A stretch of 64,000 bases of DNA, taken from contig WYAX01000015.1 of the NCBI GenBank assembly GCA_011525625.1, positions 186,001-250,000 of the forward strand, in the 5' to 3' direction. The notes under the pieces were generated by a model, which was given only the letters and a program-made list of their open reading frames with translations, was not told the DNA's origin and did not search any database. Of this stretch, positions 1-61,476 are shown one piece after another. Position numbers and translations under genes: made by a program. This DNA comes from Nitrospira defluvii (GTDB lineage Bacteria > Nitrospirota > Nitrospiria > Nitrospirales > Nitrospiraceae). Each line of letters opens with the position of its first letter. The stretch's first letter is position 1.

Positions 1-1136
1 CGACCGGCTACCAGGAATCGGTCGGCACTGTCGGTCTCTTGGACGCGCAAGGAGACGTTGGTTTCCAACTCTTTGAACAGCCGCTCGCGAAGATGGCGCG
101 ACGTGAGATACTTGCCCTCACGGCCGGCGAATGGGCTGTTGTTTACGGAAAAAGTCATTTGGACGGTCGGTTCATCGATCGTCACCCGTGGGAGCGCGAC
201 TGGATTATTCGGGTCGGCGATGGTGTCGCCGATGTTCACCTCTTCCAGGCCGCACAGGGCGACGATTTCGCCGGCTTCCGCCGTTTCGATATCGCTGCGC
301 TCAAGCCCTGAAAACACCGCGAGATCCGAAATTTTGCCCGGTACCTGGTCGCCGTCTTTCGTCAGGGTGACGACGTTTTGCCGTCGAGCAATCGAGCCCG
401 ACTGAATCTTGCCGATGCCCATTTTCCCTTTGTAAGTGTCTTGTGCCAAGGCGAGCACCAGGAGTTGGAATGGGCTGTCTCGATTGATGGCCGGTGCGGG
501 AATCTTGTCGAGGATGGTATCCAGCAGCGGCGAGATATCTGTTCCGGGCTGCTTCAGATCCAGCGTGGCGATGCCTTTGAGGGCTGAGGCGTACACGATG
601 GGGAAGTCGAGCTGTTCGTCACTGGCCCCGAGATGGACGAAGAGATCGAAGGTACGGTTCACGACATCGTCAACGACGGCGTCGGGGCGGTCGATTTTAT
701 TGACTACCACGATCGCCTTATGTCCCAGGGCCAATGCTTTGCGCAGCACGAAGGTCGTCTGCGGCATCGGGCCTTCCTTGGCATCGACGAGGATCAGCAC
801 CCCATCCACCATACGGAGCGTGCGTTCCACTTCGCCGCCGAAGTCGGCGTGCCCCGGCGTATCGACGATGTTGATCTTGACGCCTTTATAGGTCACGCTG
901 GCATTCTTGGCTCGGATCGTAATGCCCCGCTCGCGCTCCTGATCCATGGAGTCCATGATCCGTTCGCCCATGTCGTCGATCTTTCGATGGACGTGGGTCT
1001 GACGCAGCACGGCATCGACAAGGGTCGTTTTCCCATGGTCGACGTGTGCGATGATGGCGATGTTGCGAATATCGGTCCGACGACCTTGCGGTGCATGCAG
1101 ACCGGATGGGGTGGATGAGGGGGCTGAACTGTTCAT
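1..1136 (-). CDS. typA: translational GTPase TypA/BipA, 3' end outside window
   Basis: A ribosome-associated GTPase of the EF-G/LepA class, involved in ribosome assembly and stress or low-temperature growth. Reading leftward from an ATG at 1136, the protein shows the G1 P-loop AHVDHGKTT near residues 23-31, an RGITI switch I motif, [14 protein letters not shown] (G3) and NKID (G4), followed by the start of the beta-barrel domain II. About 378 codons are visible and the frame stays open to base 1, so domains III, V and the C-terminal domain lie outside the window. The gene stands alone, divergent from the penicillin-binding protein gene. Its leader contains a terminator-like hairpin (separate entry). 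TypA is preferred over LepA because of the [12 protein letters not shown] segment after G3, typical of TypA. Confidence 0.95.
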
Positions 1137-53060: not shown

Positions 53061-53768
53061 ATGCGGATCAATAAATTGTTCACCGAGCAGGGACTGTGCT
53101 CGCGGAGAGAAGCGGATCGACTGATCGCGGAAGGACGCGTCACCATCAACGGCGTGGTGGCCAAACTCGGTGATCAGGTTTCGCCGCACGATGTCGTGGC
53201 GCGCGATGGCGTGGTGCTGCAGCGGGCCAATCGTTCTGTCTATCTCAAGTATCACAAGCCGGTCGGCGTGACGACAACCACGGAGTTGCACGTTCCACGA
53301 AACATCATCTCCGAAATCCGACATCCCGAACGAATTTTCCCCATCGGCCGGCTCGACAAAGATTCCTCGGGCCTGATCCTCTTGACCAACGACGGCGATA
53401 TCGTCAACGAGATTCTACGGGTCGAGCATGGGCACGAACGGGAATATCGCGTGGAGGTGGATCGGGAGTTCGATGAGGCGTTTCTTGCGAAGATGGCCCA
53501 GGGCGTGATGATTCTCGGTGCACGGACGCGCCCGTGTACCGCGACGCGCCTCGGGCCGCACCGGTTCCGGATCATTTTGACGGAAGGGCGCAATCGTCAG
53601 ATTCGGCGTATGTGCCAGGCGCTCGGGTATCGGGTCGTCGGGCTGCATCGTGTGCGGATCATGCACATCACTGTGGAGGGACTGCATGCGGGGCAGTGGA
53701 AGGATCTGAGCGGGGAGGAACGCCGGCGGCTCTTTCAGGCGCTCGGCCGGCCGGTCGAGCCGTCGTGA
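53061..53768 (+). CDS. rluF: 23S rRNA pseudouridine synthase RluF
   Basis: RsuA-family pseudouridine synthase of 235 residues. An N-terminal S4 domain (MRINKLFTEQGLCSRREADRL is its beginning) precedes the catalytic domain with D99 in GRLDKDSSGLILLTNDGD and the C-terminal NRQIRRMCQALGY. The closest pattern remembered is RluF (uridine 2604 of 23S rRNA). ATG 53061 opens the S4 domain directly; the open frame upstream has no similarity. About 190 bp separate it from agmatinase, so it is probably independent. Confidence 0.88.
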   Translation: MRINKLFTEQGLCSRREADRLIAEGRVTINGVVAKLGDQVSPHDVVARDGVVLQRANRSVYLKYHKPVGVTTTTELHVPRNIISEIRHPERIFPIGRLDKDSSGLILLTNDGDIVNEILRVEHGHEREYRVEVDREFDEAFLAKMAQGVMILGARTRPCTATRLGPHRFRIILTEGRNRQIRRMCQALGYRVVGLHRVRIMHITVEGLHAGQWKDLSGEERRRLFQALGRPVEPS

Positions 53769-54772: not shown

Positions 54773-56440
54773 TTAGTTCAACATGATCCGTCGGTCGACA
54801 TGTGGAGTCAGATTCGGATCATTCGACACGAAAATCACCGACCAGGGCTCTTCTTTGCTGCACAGACGACGGAGAATCGTCTCGCGCATGGCGGGATGCA
54901 TGTTGTGAAGGATCCCCTCGAAAATGAGGAGTTGCGGGCGCCCCAGGATCGCTCGGGCGACCAGAATGCGCGCAATGTGCGACGGCGCAAAAACTTTACC
55001 GGCAGTTCGGACGTGGGTTTTGAGGCCTTGAGGCAGGGCGTCGACTTCCTCTTCCAGCTCGGTGAAGCGTAATGCCCATCGTACGTCGCTGTAGGGGATA
55101 TACTCCCGTCCGAGCACGATGTTCTCTTCCAGCGTGCCTTCGAAGAGCGAGAGTCGTGAGTCCAGGATGAACCCGCGGAACCGATTGACAGCGTCCAGAT
55201 CGAGGTGGCGTAGGTCGACGCCGTTGTAGCGGATCACGCCGGAGGTCGGCGAGTCGAGACCGCCCAGGATTCGCGCCAGGGTCGTTTTGGCCATCGTCGA
55301 TCCTGCGTAGATGCCGACTTTTTCCCCGGGTGTGACTTCCAGGTTGAATTGCTCGAATAGTGCCGGGCCTCCGACAGGATCGAACGTCAGATCCTTGCAG
55401 GTGACGCGAATGCCGTGTACGGTCGGGTCCGGCAGGGGAATGGACAGCGTCGCGGTATCCTGGTCTTTCGGCAGAGAAAACAGAAAGCCGAGTTCGGTCA
55501 AGGCGGTGAGGAAGTAATAGATGTGTCCCATCCGTTTGACGACTCCGTCGAAACTCGACAGAATACCGCTCACCACGACCTCGGCGGCGACAAATTGTCC
55601 TAAGGTCAACTGGCCGATTCCCAGTAGCCAGCCGGCGGTGGCGATGAGGCCGCTATGCACAATGGCCTGCCATCCGAGAGAGCCCAGATATTGCCGGATC
55701 AGAATGCCGAATCTGGCTTTGCGCACATTGACGTAAGTGTCGACGAGGTGGTCTGTTTTTTTGATCAACAGCGCCTGACTATCCGTCGACTTGAGGTGGA
55801 GCAGGTTGTAGGCGATTTCCTGGAACCAATGCAGCGTGGCGTATTTGGCGTGGGAGAGTTCGAGGTCGGCCTTGGGCCCGCCGTGACTCATGAGGAAAAA
55901 CACCACGTTGAACCCGAGCAGCAGAATCGCGTTATACAGCAGGAAATAGGGGTGATAAAAGACCAGGATCGTCATGCCCACCGCGCCGCCGACGATCACA
56001 TTGATCAGGTCGACTAACAGGACCGAGACGGCCCGCTGCATGAACATGGTTTCCATGAAATAGTTTGCGAAACGCGGCTCGAATCCCTGGTAGCGCAGAT
56101 GCGGCAGTTGCTGTGCCATCGCAATGGCGACGCGGGCGAAAATGCGGCGTTCCAATACCTCCACCGCGTAATATTGCAGGGCCCGAAATGCGCCGACGAA
56201 GAGCAACGCCGCGACCATGACCACGGCCAGCGTGACGATGGTGATGGGCTGTAGAGCGAAGGCAAACGTGTTGACGAGTTCTTGAACGGTCAGCGGAACG
56301 ATCAGCGCGAAGAGCCCGATGGCGATCGAATAGGAAAAGATGAGGCCCAGAATCCGTCGTTCGAGACGGAAGAGGAGGCCCAGGTGGCCGACGACCGTTT
56401 GGAACATGTTACTCTGGTTGCCGGAATGATCCTGGGCCAT
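54773..56440 (-). CDS. ABC exporter-like protein with degenerate ATPase domain
   Basis: Type I ABC protein: a membrane domain with about five or six helices in residues 30-300 and a nucleotide-binding domain after about 335, 555 residues in all. The ATPase motifs are all altered. Walker A reads AGSTMAKTT (glycines lost, Lys kept), the Q-loop is ILDSRLSLF, the signature LSGGQ is FAPSH, Walker B ends LLIFEGIL (Asp to Glu, catalytic Glu to Gly) and the switch His is Asn in VSNDP. The fold and the LFEGTLEENI motif are kept. It follows TolC- and HlyD-like genes, as in type I secretion, but is probably unable to hydrolyse ATP. Confidence 0.85.
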   Translation of the reverse strand: MAQDHSGNQSNMFQTVVGHLGLLFRLERRILGLIFSYSIAIGLFALIVPLTVQELVNTFAFALQPITIVTLAVVMVAALLFVGAFRALQYYAVEVLERRIFARVAIAMAQQLPHLRYQGFEPRFANYFMETMFMQRAVSVLLVDLINVIVGGAVGMTILVFYHPYFLLYNAILLLGFNVVFFLMSHGGPKADLELSHAKYATLHWFQEIAYNLLHLKSTDSQALLIKKTDHLVDTYVNVRKARFGILIRQYLGSLGWQAIVHSGLIATAGWLLGIGQLTLGQFVAAEVVVSGILSSFDGVVKRMGHIYYFLTALTELGFLFSLPKDQDTATLSIPLPDPTVHGIRVTCKDLTFDPVGGPALFEQFNLEVTPGEKVGIYAGSTMAKTTLARILGGLDSPTSGVIRYNGVDLRHLDLDAVNRFRGFILDSRLSLFEGTLEENIVLGREYIPYSDVRWALRFTELEEEVDALPQGLKTHVRTAGKVFAPSHIARILVARAILGRPQLLIFEGILHNMHPAMRETILRRLCSKEEPWSVIFVSNDPNLTPHVDRRIMLN

Positions 56441-56566
56441 GCGACTACCCTTAGCTACACCTGACTGGGCCCTATGTGTTGTGCGGCCGCCTCATGATCC
56501 GGCGCACGTGTCCCCGCAGCCCGATGAGGATCGCTAAAACCTATCAGAGAGGGCCGTAAATTGCCA

Positions 56567-58063
56567 CTACTTGGCGAAGCTTGCGCCGACCCGATAGTTG
56601 ACCGGTACGGCGGAAGGCTGGCTTCGTGCCCATGAGCCCGTGGCCCACTGATACAGCGCCAAGGCCTTCTGAAAATCGGCTTTCGCCCGCACCAGTTGCA
56701 TCTCCGAATCGACGGAATTTCGTTCGCGGAGGTTCACGAAAAGGACGCTGGTGGCCCCCAGGCTGAAGCGAAAGCGCTCCCCTTCCTCTAAGGTCTTGGC
56801 CATGCGAAGCGATTCCGCCGCTGCCGCGACCCGTTCCTTCGCCCGCTCGATCGCCGACAGCGCATTGTCCACATCCACCACGACCTGCTGTTCCCGGTAT
56901 TTCTGCACCAGCACCAGCCGATCGGCTTGCGCCTGGGCTTCCATCACCTCGCCGCGGCTTCGGCGTTGCAGGATCGGGATGCGCAATTCCGCCCCGAAAC
57001 GGTAGCCCAGTCCGAGGACGAACTTTTCAGGGGCGCGTGCCGGCGCCGCTTCCAGATCGAGGCTGGGGAGGAGATTGTTTTTGGCGAGTTCCAGATCGAT
57101 GTTGTTGACCTTCGCCTCGATATCGACTTCGCGAATCTCCGGGCGGTCGGTTTTCGCCTGCAGCTTGTCGGCCTTGACGGTTTCGGACGTCGGGGGGGCG
57201 GCGGCCGGCGGAAAGTCGGGGACCCGCTCAAGCTGCGGCACGGTGGGCGTTTGGTTTTCCCAGAGGAACATCGACATCTTGTACTGTTCTTGTTCCACGG
57301 CCCGCTGTGCGGCGATGGCGATTTCACGGCGTCGCTGCACTTCTTGTCCCGCTTCGACGACATCGAGCGGCGCCACCGCCCCCGCTTTGGCACGGCCCTC
57401 GACCTGTCGCAACCGTTCTTCGGCGACTCCGAGTGCCCGGCGTTGGACATCAACGAATTTTGCCGCGGACACCCAGTCCCAAAACTGCGTGGCGGCGGCG
57501 AGGAAGAGATCCTGGCGTGTTTGGGAAATCTTCACCTCGGCCCGGGGGTCGGCCAATTCCGAGCGTTGGAGCTCAGCATGCTCCGGATTGATCATCAAGC
57601 CTTTCAGCAAGGGCAAGAACCCGCCCAGAATCACTTGTTGGCCGTTGCCGAATGCGAGGTCTGGAATCTTGGCGTCGCCGATGGATTGCCGGATGCCCGC
57701 GCTGCCCCGGAACCCCCAAGGCGTGCGTGCTTCCACGAGGGTGTCGTTGAAGCCGACGCTCTGTGTTTTGGTGGTGCCTTTCTCGATAAATCGTTCAATT
57801 TCGGTATCGTTGACGAAGACGGGCTCGAACGCGCCGAGGGCCTTGAGCATTTTCCCTCGTGCCGACGTTTTTTCGGTGCCGGCTCCCTTCAGGAGCGGAT
57901 GGGACCGATCGATCCAGGCATGGACTTCGTTGAGTGAAAGTGGAATGGGCGGGAGGGGCTTCGATTTCGAAGCCTCCTCGGCGGCTGGACTTGTGTCCGG
58001 CACCCAGCACAGCGCACAGGCTGTGATGACGAATATCCCGGCGTAGTTTCTCATGAGGCGCAC
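56567..58063 (-). CDS. TolC family outer membrane efflux protein
   Basis: Outer-membrane/periplasmic channel subunit of 498 residues with a signal peptide (about 1-27). It has the long amphipathic coiled-coil helices of TolC proteins (RALGVAEERLRQVEGRAKAGAVAPLDVVEAGQEVQRR in part, and DNALSAIERAKERVAAAAESL), with a short Ala/Pro-rich linker in the first half. Lies between the HlyD-like and ABC-like genes, completing a tripartite exporter. Confidence 0.88.
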   Translation of the reverse strand: MRLMRNYAGIFVITACALCWVPDTSPAAEEASKSKPLPPIPLSLNEVHAWIDRSHPLLKGAGTEKTSARGKMLKALGAFEPVFVNDTEIERFIEKGTTKTQSVGFNDTLVEARTPWGFRGSAGIRQSIGDAKIPDLAFGNGQQVILGGFLPLLKGLMINPEHAELQRSELADPRAEVKISQTRQDLFLAAATQFWDWVSAAKFVDVQRRALGVAEERLRQVEGRAKAGAVAPLDVVEAGQEVQRRREIAIAAQRAVEQEQYKMSMFLWENQTPTVPQLERVPDFPPAAAPPTSETVKADKLQAKTDRPEIREVDIEAKVNNIDLELAKNNLLPSLDLEAAPARAPEKFVLGLGYRFGAELRIPILQRRSRGEVMEAQAQADRLVLVQKYREQQVVVDVDNALSAIERAKERVAAAAESLRMAKTLEEGERFRFSLGATSVLFVNLRERNSVDSEMQLVRAKADFQKALALYQWATGSWARSQPSAVPVNYRVGASFAK

Positions 58064-58143
58064 TCCTTTCTGCGTTCGAGAGAAAGAGCATCGGCGTCGA
58101 GGAATTATCGTCGTTCCCGCGCGGGCCGGGAACGCGGCGATGA

Positions 58144-59580
58144 TTACTTAGCCCCGCGACCGGCTTTGGGCAGGAGGGTGTCGATCAGGCTCGGAGGCCG
58201 TTCCTGATAGTCCGGCGGGAAGAGGTTAAACCGGCGCCACAGTTCGTACCAGAGCGGGACGCGGTTGAGAATGACCCATCCCATCGCTTTGGTCCCCTGT
58301 CGAACATGTTCTTGCGGCGGCCAGGGGCGCTCCTCATGATCGGGCACGACCCAGAAGCGGAAATTGCCCTTCCCGTCATCAACCTGGTCGATGACCTTGA
58401 TGACGCCGTTATAGGTTCCGGCCATCAGTTCCGGCCAAGCCGGTAACGGGATAGCAGGAATTCCGTAGAAGAGAATCTTCACTTTCCGCCCGACGTTCAG
58501 GAGTGGTGCGTCGATCCCGTCGGCGACCATTTCTATCGCCTTGTCCGTGCTGCTCGGAGAAATTCTCACAAGCTTGTCCCCCGGCCGCACGGTTTCGCCG
58601 GCGCCGGCCTGCGCCATTTTGACCACGGTCCCGTCGATCGGCGACAGAATCCGGCTTGCCACGCGCCGTTGGTTGGCGTTGGAGAGTCGCAGCGAGACGT
58701 CCGCAACTTGATCGGTGGCCCGCGCCGCCTCACCGATCGAGGCATCACGCGCCGCTTCGGCATCGAGCAGTCGTTGTAGAACTTCCGCACTCACCTGTTC
58801 CCGCCCGAAGCTCAGCGCTTTCATCCCTTGTTCGGCGGCAGCCAGGTTGGCCTGTGCTGCTTGCAGATCCGCTTTACTGGCGATGGCGGCTTGAATGGTG
58901 AGTTCCAGTTCGCGTTGGGAGACCAATCCTTGTTGCGCCAATTGCTGGTGCCGTTCTACATTCAGCTCGGCTGTGGCGACTGCGATCTTCGCGGCTTCGA
59001 TTTTTTGTCTTGCTTCGCGCACCTTGCTTTCCGCCTCGAGGACGCGCGCACCCGCCGACGGCACGGCGGCTTTCACAAGATTTTGCATTTCCTTGATGCG
59101 CTTATCGAGTTGATCGGCTCGGCTCAACGCGGCTTTCCGGGTTTGTTCCAGCGCCTGTTTGCGCTGTTCCAAGAGGCTCAGCAGATCCGGGGCCATGAAG
59201 TTCGGGTCATAGTCGTCAAGTTCGAGAATCACATCACCGGCTTTCACCCGTACGCCTTCGAAGATATGCCATTTCTTGATACGGCCGGTGATCTGGGCTT
59301 CGACATCCTGGGGTCGTTCGAAGGGGGTGTAGGCTGAGAGTTGTCCGGTGACAGTGATAGTTTGGGTCCAGGGGACGAAGGCCACGATGAGTATGAAGAA
59401 CGCGACCAGGAGAATGGCCAGCCGAGAAGAGAATCGAAGCCGCTCGGGGATCTGGACCGCTTCCCATGATTGCAGTTTGGTCGAGGTCGCCAAGTCGTCG
59501 ACGGCCATTTCGTCCAGCCCCGTGCGCTGGGTGACCAGAGAGCGAAATCGCGTTTTGAGCCCTTCACGAATACGCTGCAC
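58144..59580 (-). CDS. HlyD-family membrane fusion protein
   Basis: Periplasmic adaptor of about 478 residues: one membrane segment at about 55-75, a lipoyl-type domain (EGVRVKAGDVILELDDYD), a very long coiled coil (about 135-300, EQTRKAALSRADQLDKRI onward), then IDGTVVKMAQAGAGETVRPGDKLVRI and a beta-barrel domain. Start GTG 59580 is chosen over GTG 59598 since GGAGG lies 6 bp before it. First gene of the HlyD-TolC-ABC operon. The cargo exported is unknown. Confidence 0.88.
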   Translation of the reverse strand: MQRIREGLKTRFRSLVTQRTGLDEMAVDDLATSTKLQSWEAVQIPERLRFSSRLAILLVAFFILIVAFVPWTQTITVTGQLSAYTPFERPQDVEAQITGRIKKWHIFEGVRVKAGDVILELDDYDPNFMAPDLLSLLEQRKQALEQTRKAALSRADQLDKRIKEMQNLVKAAVPSAGARVLEAESKVREARQKIEAAKIAVATAELNVERHQQLAQQGLVSQRELELTIQAAIASKADLQAAQANLAAAEQGMKALSFGREQVSAEVLQRLLDAEAARDASIGEAARATDQVADVSLRLSNANQRRVASRILSPIDGTVVKMAQAGAGETVRPGDKLVRISPSSTDKAIEMVADGIDAPLLNVGRKVKILFYGIPAIPLPAWPELMAGTYNGVIKVIDQVDDGKGNFRFWVVPDHEERPWPPQEHVRQGTKAMGWVILNRVPLWYELWRRFNLFPPDYQERPPSLIDTLLPKAGRGAK

Positions 59581-59758
59581 GTGAGCCCTCCACTGCACGG
59601 ACCTTCATGAGGAAGCGCACCGGTTTCCATAATAGTGGAAGACAAAGGAGTTGGTCAATTCAATGACGTGTTACGTGACGGCTCAACTTGACCCATTGGC
59701 ATCAGAACGGCTATGGTTCGCCGCGTCGTCTTGTCCTTCAGCCAGAGGTAGGGCATTC

Positions 59759-60313
59759 ATGTCGAAGAGCCGTCACGCCGTGCGCGCATCTGTCGGAGTG
59801 TTGGGTGGGAGTACATCGGATTTTCCGATTCTTGAGAAGGCCGTGGCCATGCTCAACGAGCTCGGGATTCCCAACGAGCTATTAGTGGTGTCGGCCCATC
59901 GTACTCCCGATCGCCTCTTCACGTACGCCGAGCAGGCGGTTAAGCGGGGGATACAGGTGATTATTGCCGGTGCCGGCGGAGCGGCCCATCTGCCGGGGAT
60001 GCTCGCGGCAAAAACTCCGCTGCCTGTCATCGGGGTGCCTATTCCAACCGAACAGCTTCGCGGGTTGGATTCCCTGCTGTCCATCGTCCAAATGCCGCGG
60101 GGGATCCCGGTCGCCACCGTGGCCATCGGCGGGGCCGAAAATGCCGCGATCCTGGCTGCCCAGATTCTGGGATTGCAGTCGGTGAGCATCAGACAACGCG
60201 TCGACGCATTTCGCACGGCACAAACGCAACGCGTGCTCGACTCCCAGGACGACGCCCGGTTGTCTCCTCCCTTTCCGATGACACGCACCGTCCAGGCGGG
60301 CCGCCGACGGTGA
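59759..60313 (+). CDS. purE: N5-carboxyaminoimidazole ribonucleotide mutase PurE
   Basis: Purine biosynthesis enzyme that rearranges N5-CAIR to CAIR. The 184 residues carry [27 protein letters not shown] and [13 protein letters not shown], all typical of class I PurE. An AGAGGTAGGG ribosome site precedes ATG 59759. The stop overlaps the purK start (GTGA), so PurE and PurK are coupled. The C terminus extends beyond the usual 165 residues with a basic tail. Confidence 0.94.
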
Positions 60314-61476
60314 ACGTGACTGCCATCGAGCCAGGCGCGACTCTGGGGGTGCTTGGAGGTGGGCAACTGGGTGCCATGTTCGCCACCGCCGCCAGGCGGA
60401 TGGGGTATGCGACTGCGGTGTGGGATCCAGACCCTGAGGCCCCGGCCCACCGCCTTGCCGACTATTCGTTGATCAAGCCGTTTGACGATGCCGACGCCCG
60501 CCGTGAATTCACTCGACTGGTACGTGCCGTCACCTATGAATGGGAGAACATCCCGGCTGATCTGTGCGAACAGTTGGAGCGTGACGTGCCGGTTCGCCCG
60601 TCCAGCCGGGTGTTGCGAGTGATTCAAGATCGCATCGAACAGAAGACGTTCTTACGGAATCAGGGATTGGCGGTCCCGGCATTTTTCGCCATAGCCTCAC
60701 CGGAGCAACTGGGCCGGCAGGTCGCGCCGGGCTATCCCCTGGTGTGTAAGACCGCCACTGCCGGCTATGACGGCAAGGGGCAATGGAAAATCGCGCGAGC
60801 GGAAGACGGTGCTGCGGTGCAGCAGGAATTGGCCAGGACCAGGAGACCCGGATCGCGGTGGATCCTCGAAGAGTGGTTGCCCTTCGATCGCGAAGTGTCG
60901 ATCCTCGTGGTGCGGGGGGCAGACGGGGCGTCGCGGACCTATCCGTTGGTTGAAAATGTGCATGAACACGGGATTCTTCGCCAGACCACTGTGCCTGCGG
61001 ATGTGCCGGCGGCGGTGGCCCAGCAGGCGGCGGATATGGCGAGACAAGCGGTGCAGGCGCTGGATGGGGTGGGGGTCTTTTGCGTGGAACTGTTTCTCAT
61101 GTCCGATGATCGGGTGCTCATTAACGAGGTTGCGCCCCGTCCCCACAATTCCGGTCACTATTCGTTGGATGCCTGCACGGTGTCGCAGTTCGAGCAACAG
61201 GTGCGGACGCTTTGCGGCTTGCCGCTCGGAGAAATCCGTCTGCTCAGTCCAGCCGTCATGGTCAACCTCATCGGTGACGATGTTCGATCGGCGACTACCG
61301 CTCCCGCCGTGCAAGAGCTGTTGCGTGAGCCGGGTGCGATCGTGCATGTGTACGGGAAACGAGCCATTCGCCCCAAGCGGAAAATGGGCCATGTTTCGTT
61401 CCTTGCCGCAACCCGGGACGCAGCACTTGCCAAAGCCGTGTCATTCCGTGCGAGACTGATTCCGACCTCCTGTTAG
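60310..61476 (+). CDS. purK: N5-carboxyaminoimidazole ribonucleotide synthase PurK
   Basis: ATP-grasp enzyme that carboxylates AIR. The 388 residues begin (GTG 60310) [22 protein letters not shown], have YEWENIP, the ATP-grasp core with [14 protein letters not shown], and [14 protein letters not shown]. Normal length and complete motif set. It follows purE directly, the usual purEK order. Confidence 0.95.

Follow-up and report, generated by a model that had tools for sequence, protein, structure and literature searches.

Organization of the operon

The DNA analysed here, a 64,000-nucleotide stretch of Nitrospira defluvii (assembly GCA_011525625.1, contig WYAX01000015.1, positions 186,001 to 250,000; hereafter the window), contains an operon resembling a type I secretion system (T1SS), in which the nucleotide-binding domain (NBD) of the ATP-binding cassette (ABC) protein is altered at the residues required for ATP hydrolysis. 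An initial annotation, made from the sequence alone, had placed HlyD-like, TolC-like and ABC-like genes in one operon. This was borne out, as three minus-strand open reading frames (ORFs) were present at the corresponding position and the Pfam matches agreed (Table 1). The three components that characterise a T1SS, namely an ABC-fold inner-membrane protein, a HlyD-type adaptor and a TolC-type channel, are present in the one operon, with HlyD upstream of TolC, an order kept in Nitrospirales. The consensus scan returned a single minus-strand promoter-like site between positions 53600 and 59900, located before the HlyD gene. The 4HB_MCP-like gene is the same-strand, 3′ neighbour of the ABC gene in nearly all Nitrospiraceae loci and is probably the last gene of the operon. 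No NCBIfam model was matched at its cut-off by the HlyD, TolC or ABC-like protein; the match of the HlyD protein to TIGR01843 (E 3.1e-22) was under the cut-off.

Table 1. Genes, motifs and residues of the operon, with coordinates in the window (aa, amino acids; TM, transmembrane)
Feature	Position	Strand	Basis or remark
Promoter-like site TTGACC-18-TATTAT, upstream of HlyD	59629..59658	-	Consensus scan; a match, not proof
HlyD-type periplasmic adaptor (membrane fusion protein), 484 aa	58144..59598	-	Pfam HlyD_3, E 1.9e-8
TolC-type outer-membrane channel, 498 aa	56567..58063	-	Pfam OEP, E 8.9e-30; synteny
ABC-exporter-like protein, 555 aa	54773..56440	-	Pfam ABC_tran, E 2.4e-8; predicted model
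ABC-like protein layout: TM helices, residues ~28-322; NBD, ~340-555			
E54 in TM1	56279..56281	-	Invariant acid in Nitrospirales
Coupling helix 2 (NBD docking), residues N212-LLHL-K217	55790..55807	-	Alignments
H262 in TM5	55655..55657	-	Titratable, special to Nitrospirales
E287 in TM6	55580..55582	-	Acid special to the whole family
Degenerate Walker A, residues 377-388, IYAGSTMAKTTL	55277..55312	-	Glycines lost, K385/T386 kept
Altered Q-loop, residues 423-432, GFILDSRLSL	55145..55174	-	Alignments
Lost signature, residues 484-492, FAPSHIARI vs LSGGQxxRx	54965..54991	-	Alignments
Altered Walker B and D-loop, residues 503-512, QLLIFEGILH	54905..54934	-	Alignments
Altered switch region, residues 537-542, FVSNDP	54815..54832	-	Switch His replaced by N540
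4HB_MCP-like membrane protein, 262 aa	53792..54580	-	Pfam 4HB_MCP_1, E 1.4e-11

Fold and degenerate motifs of the ABC protein

The predicted model of the ABC-like protein (pLDDT 82) showed six TM helices and an intact NBD fold. It corresponds to a complete exporter half, in agreement with the earlier statement that the fold and the membrane domain are retained. The closest structure was HlyB (8dck; Z 28.9, root-mean-square deviation 2.3 Å over 534 aa, TM-score 0.89).

The motif register was checked in multiple alignments with canonical exporters and by a profile alignment to P-glycoprotein. The Walker A consensus GxxGxGK[ST] reads A379-G-S-T382-M-A384-K385-T386, with three Gly gone and the Lys and Thr retained. 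The Q-loop reads LDSR, carrying a one-residue insertion and no Gln. The Walker B Asp, present in most relatives, is E508 in the window protein, and the catalytic Glu is replaced by G509. All ATPase motifs had been described as changed, which holds for the residues of hydrolysis but not for the Walker A Lys and Thr or the Walker B acid (E508), which survive. The possibility that the motifs had been mis-aligned was dismissed by the P-glycoprotein profile alignment together with 80-odd homologues. Since the altered motifs are conserved across dozens of genomes, chance and mis-alignment can both be excluded.

Conservation and selection in Nitrospirales

Homologues of the ABC-like protein were found in 68 of 100 relatives, as open frames in nearly all carrier genomes, and within the phylum were limited to two families of one order. 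In the alignment of the 37 full-length Nitrospirales homologues, the catalytic Glu position was Gly509 in all 37, and the switch His position was never His (Asn in 29). The catalytic Glu and the switch His of a T1SS consensus NBD were therefore found in none of the 37, and no homologue with intact motifs, the result that would have refuted the initial annotation, was seen in the order. On the sequence evidence, the altered ABC proteins are a subfamily and not a broken gene.

A new residue, H512, was invariant (37/37), as was D541. In Nitrospiraceae, D427-S428 of the Q-loop were invariant (30/30), and the Walker A residues K385 and T386 were kept in 29 and 27 of 30 sequences. The invariance of D427 and S428 and the near-fixation of K385 (29/30) suggest rebuilding, not random change, of the former ATP site in this family. 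In the second Nitrospirales family, the Walker A Lys was Arg or Gly in all seven sequences.

Within the genus, the ratio of nonsynonymous to synonymous substitution rates (dN/dS) over ten pairs was similar in both domains, being 0.005-0.053 for the transmembrane domain (TMD) and 0.014-0.070 for the NBD. The entropy of the NBD (1.31 bits) was near that of the TMD (1.22 bits), and the Walker A segment was among the most variable (1.77 bits). Coupling helix 2 was conserved in all 37 full-length homologues, and for this reason the NBD in full-length proteins is probably still docked.

Relatives that lack the NBD

In three genomes of one clade (L113, L123 and L124), the ABC gene ends after the TMD, at 337-346 aa. 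HlyD and TolC immediately precede the shortened gene, and dabB-like genes follow it. No NBD remnant was detected in any frame downstream of the gene in these three genomes. With clean stops in all three, no downstream NBD and a selective loss of the coupling helix, sequencing error was rejected as the cause of the truncation. In the TMD tree, the clade (support 100/100) was nested among full-length relatives of the same family. A relocated family NBD was not found in these genomes, where the sole NBD matches were ordinary exporters at 35% identity or less; the family NBD has on this account not been moved elsewhere.

Coupling helix 2 showed 19% identity in the NBD-less proteins compared with 58% in the control, while the TM helices were at, near or above control identity. 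The dN/dS values followed the same division: 0.15-0.18 for the TM core and 0.10-0.16 for the adjoining HlyD and TolC, against 0.49-0.64 for intracellular loop 1, the coupling helix and the tail. The predicted model of the L123 protein kept the exporter TMD fold, as the six-TM core only. This pattern is as would be expected if the membrane part works without an NBD.

The genes following the NBD-less operons encode a dabB-like protein and dabA of an inorganic-carbon transporter (L113, 6210-3254; L123, 7518-13736; L124). A beta-carbonic anhydrase gene was seen near L111/L112 and L085, and a LysR-type regulator flanks several loci of the second family. None of these carbon-uptake genes (dabA/dabB, carbonic anhydrase) belonged to a family that recurs in the 40 mainly Bacteroidia loci described below.

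The wider family beyond Nitrospirota

In one further class, that of the Bacteroidetes genome L090, 108 of 247 sampled Bacteroidia genomes matched the family profile with E-values of 1e-100 or lower. From these and one further Cytophagales genome, 40 loci were retrieved. The order ABC-HlyD-TolC was observed at 39 of them, and a TetR regulator lay nearby at 22.

The 46 outgroup sequences, comprising Bacteroidia and other outgroup members, had a largely intact Walker A, with the first Gly in all 46 and the Lys in 43. The fourth signature position was Gly in just two, the switch His was present in two, and the catalytic position was Asp in 31 and Glu in 8. In the TMD tree, a long branch (100/99) split the family from canonical exporters, and the Nitrospirales members were united (100/100). 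Across the family the motif loss looks graded, its direction being suggested by a tree rooted at the midpoint.

An N-terminal extension of 150-200 aa was present in L085-L089 and several Bacteroidia members, and had no Pfam match where tested. Members with the extension often carry a His-rich linker before TM1, and the extension is possibly a degenerate C39-like domain. The open-access literature that was searched contained no description of this family, although one may exist elsewhere; the SecA/HlyD locus of PMC4452313 is a different one, without an ABC protein.

Buried charged residues

Titratable residues were placed on the predicted helices. E54 was found in all 37 full-length and all three NBD-less Nitrospirales proteins and in none of the 46 other relatives, which have Ala, Ser or Thr. 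H262 was present in 34 of the 37 and likewise in none of the 46. E287 was shared more widely (35/37 Nitrospirales and 45/46 other relatives, 80/83 in all) and was absent from all 19 canonical ABC exporters.

SbmA is thought to stem from an ABC TMD that lost the NBD and coupling helices, and is proton-driven via a glutamate ladder (PMC13316013). The parallel is suggestive. The leading candidate for the power source is an ion gradient, on the model of SbmA, though as a hypothesis. A preserved motor part without ATP-hydrolysing residues, and relatives that have dropped the domain altogether, suggest that an energy source other than ATP may drive these pumps. The initial annotation had offered an ATP-independent or differently powered exporter as one reading; the NBD-less relatives and the added buried charges strengthen it.

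Paralogues and neighbouring genes

In many Nitrospira, a second and equally degenerate ABC copy (B) follows straight after the first (A). Compared with its 98% sibling L049, the window strain has cleanly lost copy B and kept copy A, and many genomes have copy A alone. As the window strain and these genomes do without B, copy A probably acts as a homodimer. The orphan paralogue C of the window genome (46% identity) and the orphan D are as degenerate as B.

In both the window genome (L125) and L122, the C-type orphan has no HlyD or TolC beside it and is flanked by two genes, named by eye as a TauE-like permease and a GT2 glycosyltransferase. D-type orphans are directly upstream of a PAS histidine kinase gene (L114, 6837-3976; L117, 6514-9784), which in L114 is followed by an NtrC-type response regulator. 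This arrangement suggests co-option of the D-type paralogues into signalling.

Divergently upstream of the operon in the window are purE and purK (59651-61476). Purine genes were also noted at L090 (purE/purK), L086 (purQ) and L089 (purB). No purine family recurred in the 40 mainly Bacteroidia loci, and the association was rejected as chance.

Comparison with known systems

The operon shares with the T1SS HlyB/HlyD/TolC (8dck) the three-part gene set and the HlyB core fold, but its NBD is without the hydrolysis residues and no NCBIfam T1SS model was matched at cut-off. No substrate gene recurred beside the operon in 36 Nitrospirota or 40 mainly Bacteroidia loci. In one lineage only, a giant ORF (>2200 aa) follows the operon (L075, 8998-15654; L076). 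Kelch-like, IPT/TIG-like and YD/RHS-type repeats were recognised in it by eye, and it is possibly a secreted product. On contig C6 of the window genome (L205), a separate canonical peptidase-containing T1SS ABC protein and HlyD adjoin a 2260-aa ORF. The window genome therefore also encodes a normal type I system.

SbmA/BacA and the SbmA-like peptide transporters (SLiPT) have in common with this family the ABC-exporter TM fold without ATPase and the buried conserved acids, and the parallel is close for the proteins of L113, L123 and L124. They differ in being importers with an extra TM0 domain, outside HlyD-TolC operons, whereas the Nitrospiraceae proteins keep the NBD. A TMD without NBD and coupling helix, the SLiPT trait, was found only in those three loci. 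No Pfam SbmA-type family matched the window protein or the L123 protein. The PDB matches listed for the two models did not include SbmA, which is not evidence of absence. Having kept its NBD and coupling helix and having no family match, the window protein falls outside the SLiPT group. The loss of the NBD in Nitrospirota appears independent of that in SbmA/BacA.

The heterodimers TmrAB, TM287/288 and MRP1 likewise have a conserved degenerate nucleotide site under selection. They keep one hydrolysing consensus site, however, whereas all subunits known here are degenerate; neither tandem B nor the orphans C and D have a consensus site that would make them such a partner. The best NCBIfam scores for the window protein were to NHLM_micro_ABC1/ABC2, yet these reached 117 bits against a cut-off of 709, which its relatives also missed. 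True NHLM bacteriocin exporters have intact NBD motifs, and no NHLP peptide was seen here.

Interpretation

The explanation that we tentatively prefer is a tripartite exporter with a non-hydrolysing ABC core, a structural or regulatory NBD and a TMD that is most likely driven by an ion gradient. An inner-membrane ABC-fold dimer, a HlyD adaptor and a TolC channel would form the exporter, the ABC subunit no longer hydrolysing ATP. In Nitrospiraceae, the dead NBD would be kept as a docked, selected part that holds or gates the transmembrane dimer, and its rebuilt site may bind nucleotide or another ligand without hydrolysis. Transport would be carried out by the transmembrane dimer, most likely using an ion (proton) gradient through the buried residues E54, H262, E287 and D144. 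The drive would be SbmA-like but in the direction of export, into HlyD-TolC. The conserved loss of catalytic residues, the purifying selection, the conservation of the operon and the NBD-less end state with its decayed coupling helix are features of the sequences themselves. From these we infer the absence of hydrolysis, the structural role of the NBD and transport activity; proton drive and export direction are put forward as a hypothesis only. A scaffold had been among the readings first proposed. The strong conservation of NBD and coupling helix fits it, with the structural role as the inferred part.

Several points weigh against this explanation. K385, T386 and the Walker B acid are kept in most Nitrospiraceae, where nucleotide binding would be possible. 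With the NBD under such strong constraint, the full-length proteins cannot be regarded as simply SbmA-like. Only three genomes, all of one clade, show the NBD-less state. In ATP-driven pumps, too, buried charges have a role in structure or gating (McjD, cited in PMC13316013). Finally, the gene sets are compatible with an unlinked ATPase acting in trans.

Among the alternatives, a slow transport cycle might be driven or gated by ATP that is bound but not hydrolysed, or hydrolysed only very slowly, at the rebuilt site. Asymmetric ABC exporters have a degenerate site of this type, but here both sides of the dimer would carry one. We regard this alternative as unlikely but deserving serious attention. 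The near-fixed K385 and T386 and the invariance of D427, S428, G509, H512 and D541 in Nitrospiraceae speak for it, as do the intact Walker A (Lys 43/46) and the Asp at the catalytic position (31/46) in the Bacteroidia group. It is also favoured by the conserved degenerate sites of known exporters, in which bound ATP serves as a hinge (PMC7756269). The second Nitrospirales family lacks the Walker A Lys, however, and one clade lacks the whole NBD. Asymmetric exporters, moreover, retain one consensus site, and none was found here in any paralogue.

It is rather doubtful that the protein performs no transport and is instead an inner-membrane anchor, gate or sensor for the HlyD-TolC conduit, or a signalling receptor, with the orphan paralogues co-opted. 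The kinase and regulator genes beside the D-type paralogues would suit such a role, as would the sensor-like 4HB membrane protein conserved as the last gene of the A operon and an NBD that is constrained though catalytically dead. The TM helices and their charged residues are, however, strongly conserved along with HlyD and TolC, and this joint conservation suggests a translocation path.

Cooperation with a separate intact ATPase, whether through pairing with a canonical ABC half-transporter in a heterodimer or through an NBD provided in trans, is improbable. Heterodimers with one degenerate subunit are common, many Nitrospira have tandem second copies, and other ABC ATPases are encoded in all genomes searched. 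Against this, tandem B and the orphans C and D are all degenerate, the operons contain no recurrent ATPase gene, and no relocated family NBD was found in the NBD-less genomes. An obligate heterodimer with copy B was rejected, as B is absent from the window strain and from many other genomes that carry A. The earlier suggestion of a partner for a separate ATPase is accordingly weakened, with an unlinked ATPase in trans as its surviving form, and the interpretation in the initial annotation is, taken as a whole, supported in part. That a once-normal ABC exporter is turning into a pseudogene is scarcely credible, and was rejected for Nitrospiraceae: all catalytic motifs are lost in the window protein, but dN/dS is ~0.01-0.06 over long divergence and the same altered residues are fixed across two families.

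A broader reading, possible but held with some reserve, is that an ongoing or completed shift from ATP to ion-gradient drive, with intermediates preserved, has taken place in a HlyD-TolC exporter lineage of Bacteroidota, Chlorobiota, Planctomycetota and Nitrospirota. In such a series, the Bacteroidia would represent loss of the signature with the P-loop kept. The Nitrospiraceae would represent loss of the P-loop, the NBD being kept as a scaffold and buried charges gained, and one Nitrospirales clade the loss of both NBD and coupling helix.

ABC transporters are defined by ATP-powered transport, and to our knowledge the known exporters keep at least one working site. Here, in a family spanning several phyla, the exporter, adaptor and channel are under selection while a dead motor has become fixed, and in one branch has been dropped. 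Many genes annotated as 'ABC ATPase' in Bacteroidia and Nitrospira may have no ATPase activity, which would make this a common annotation error. The family would provide a natural series for the change of a primary pump into something else. If the broader reading is true, the lineage would further represent a second and independent case of an ABC exporter converted to a secondary transporter and, as far as is known, the first inside a tripartite exporter.

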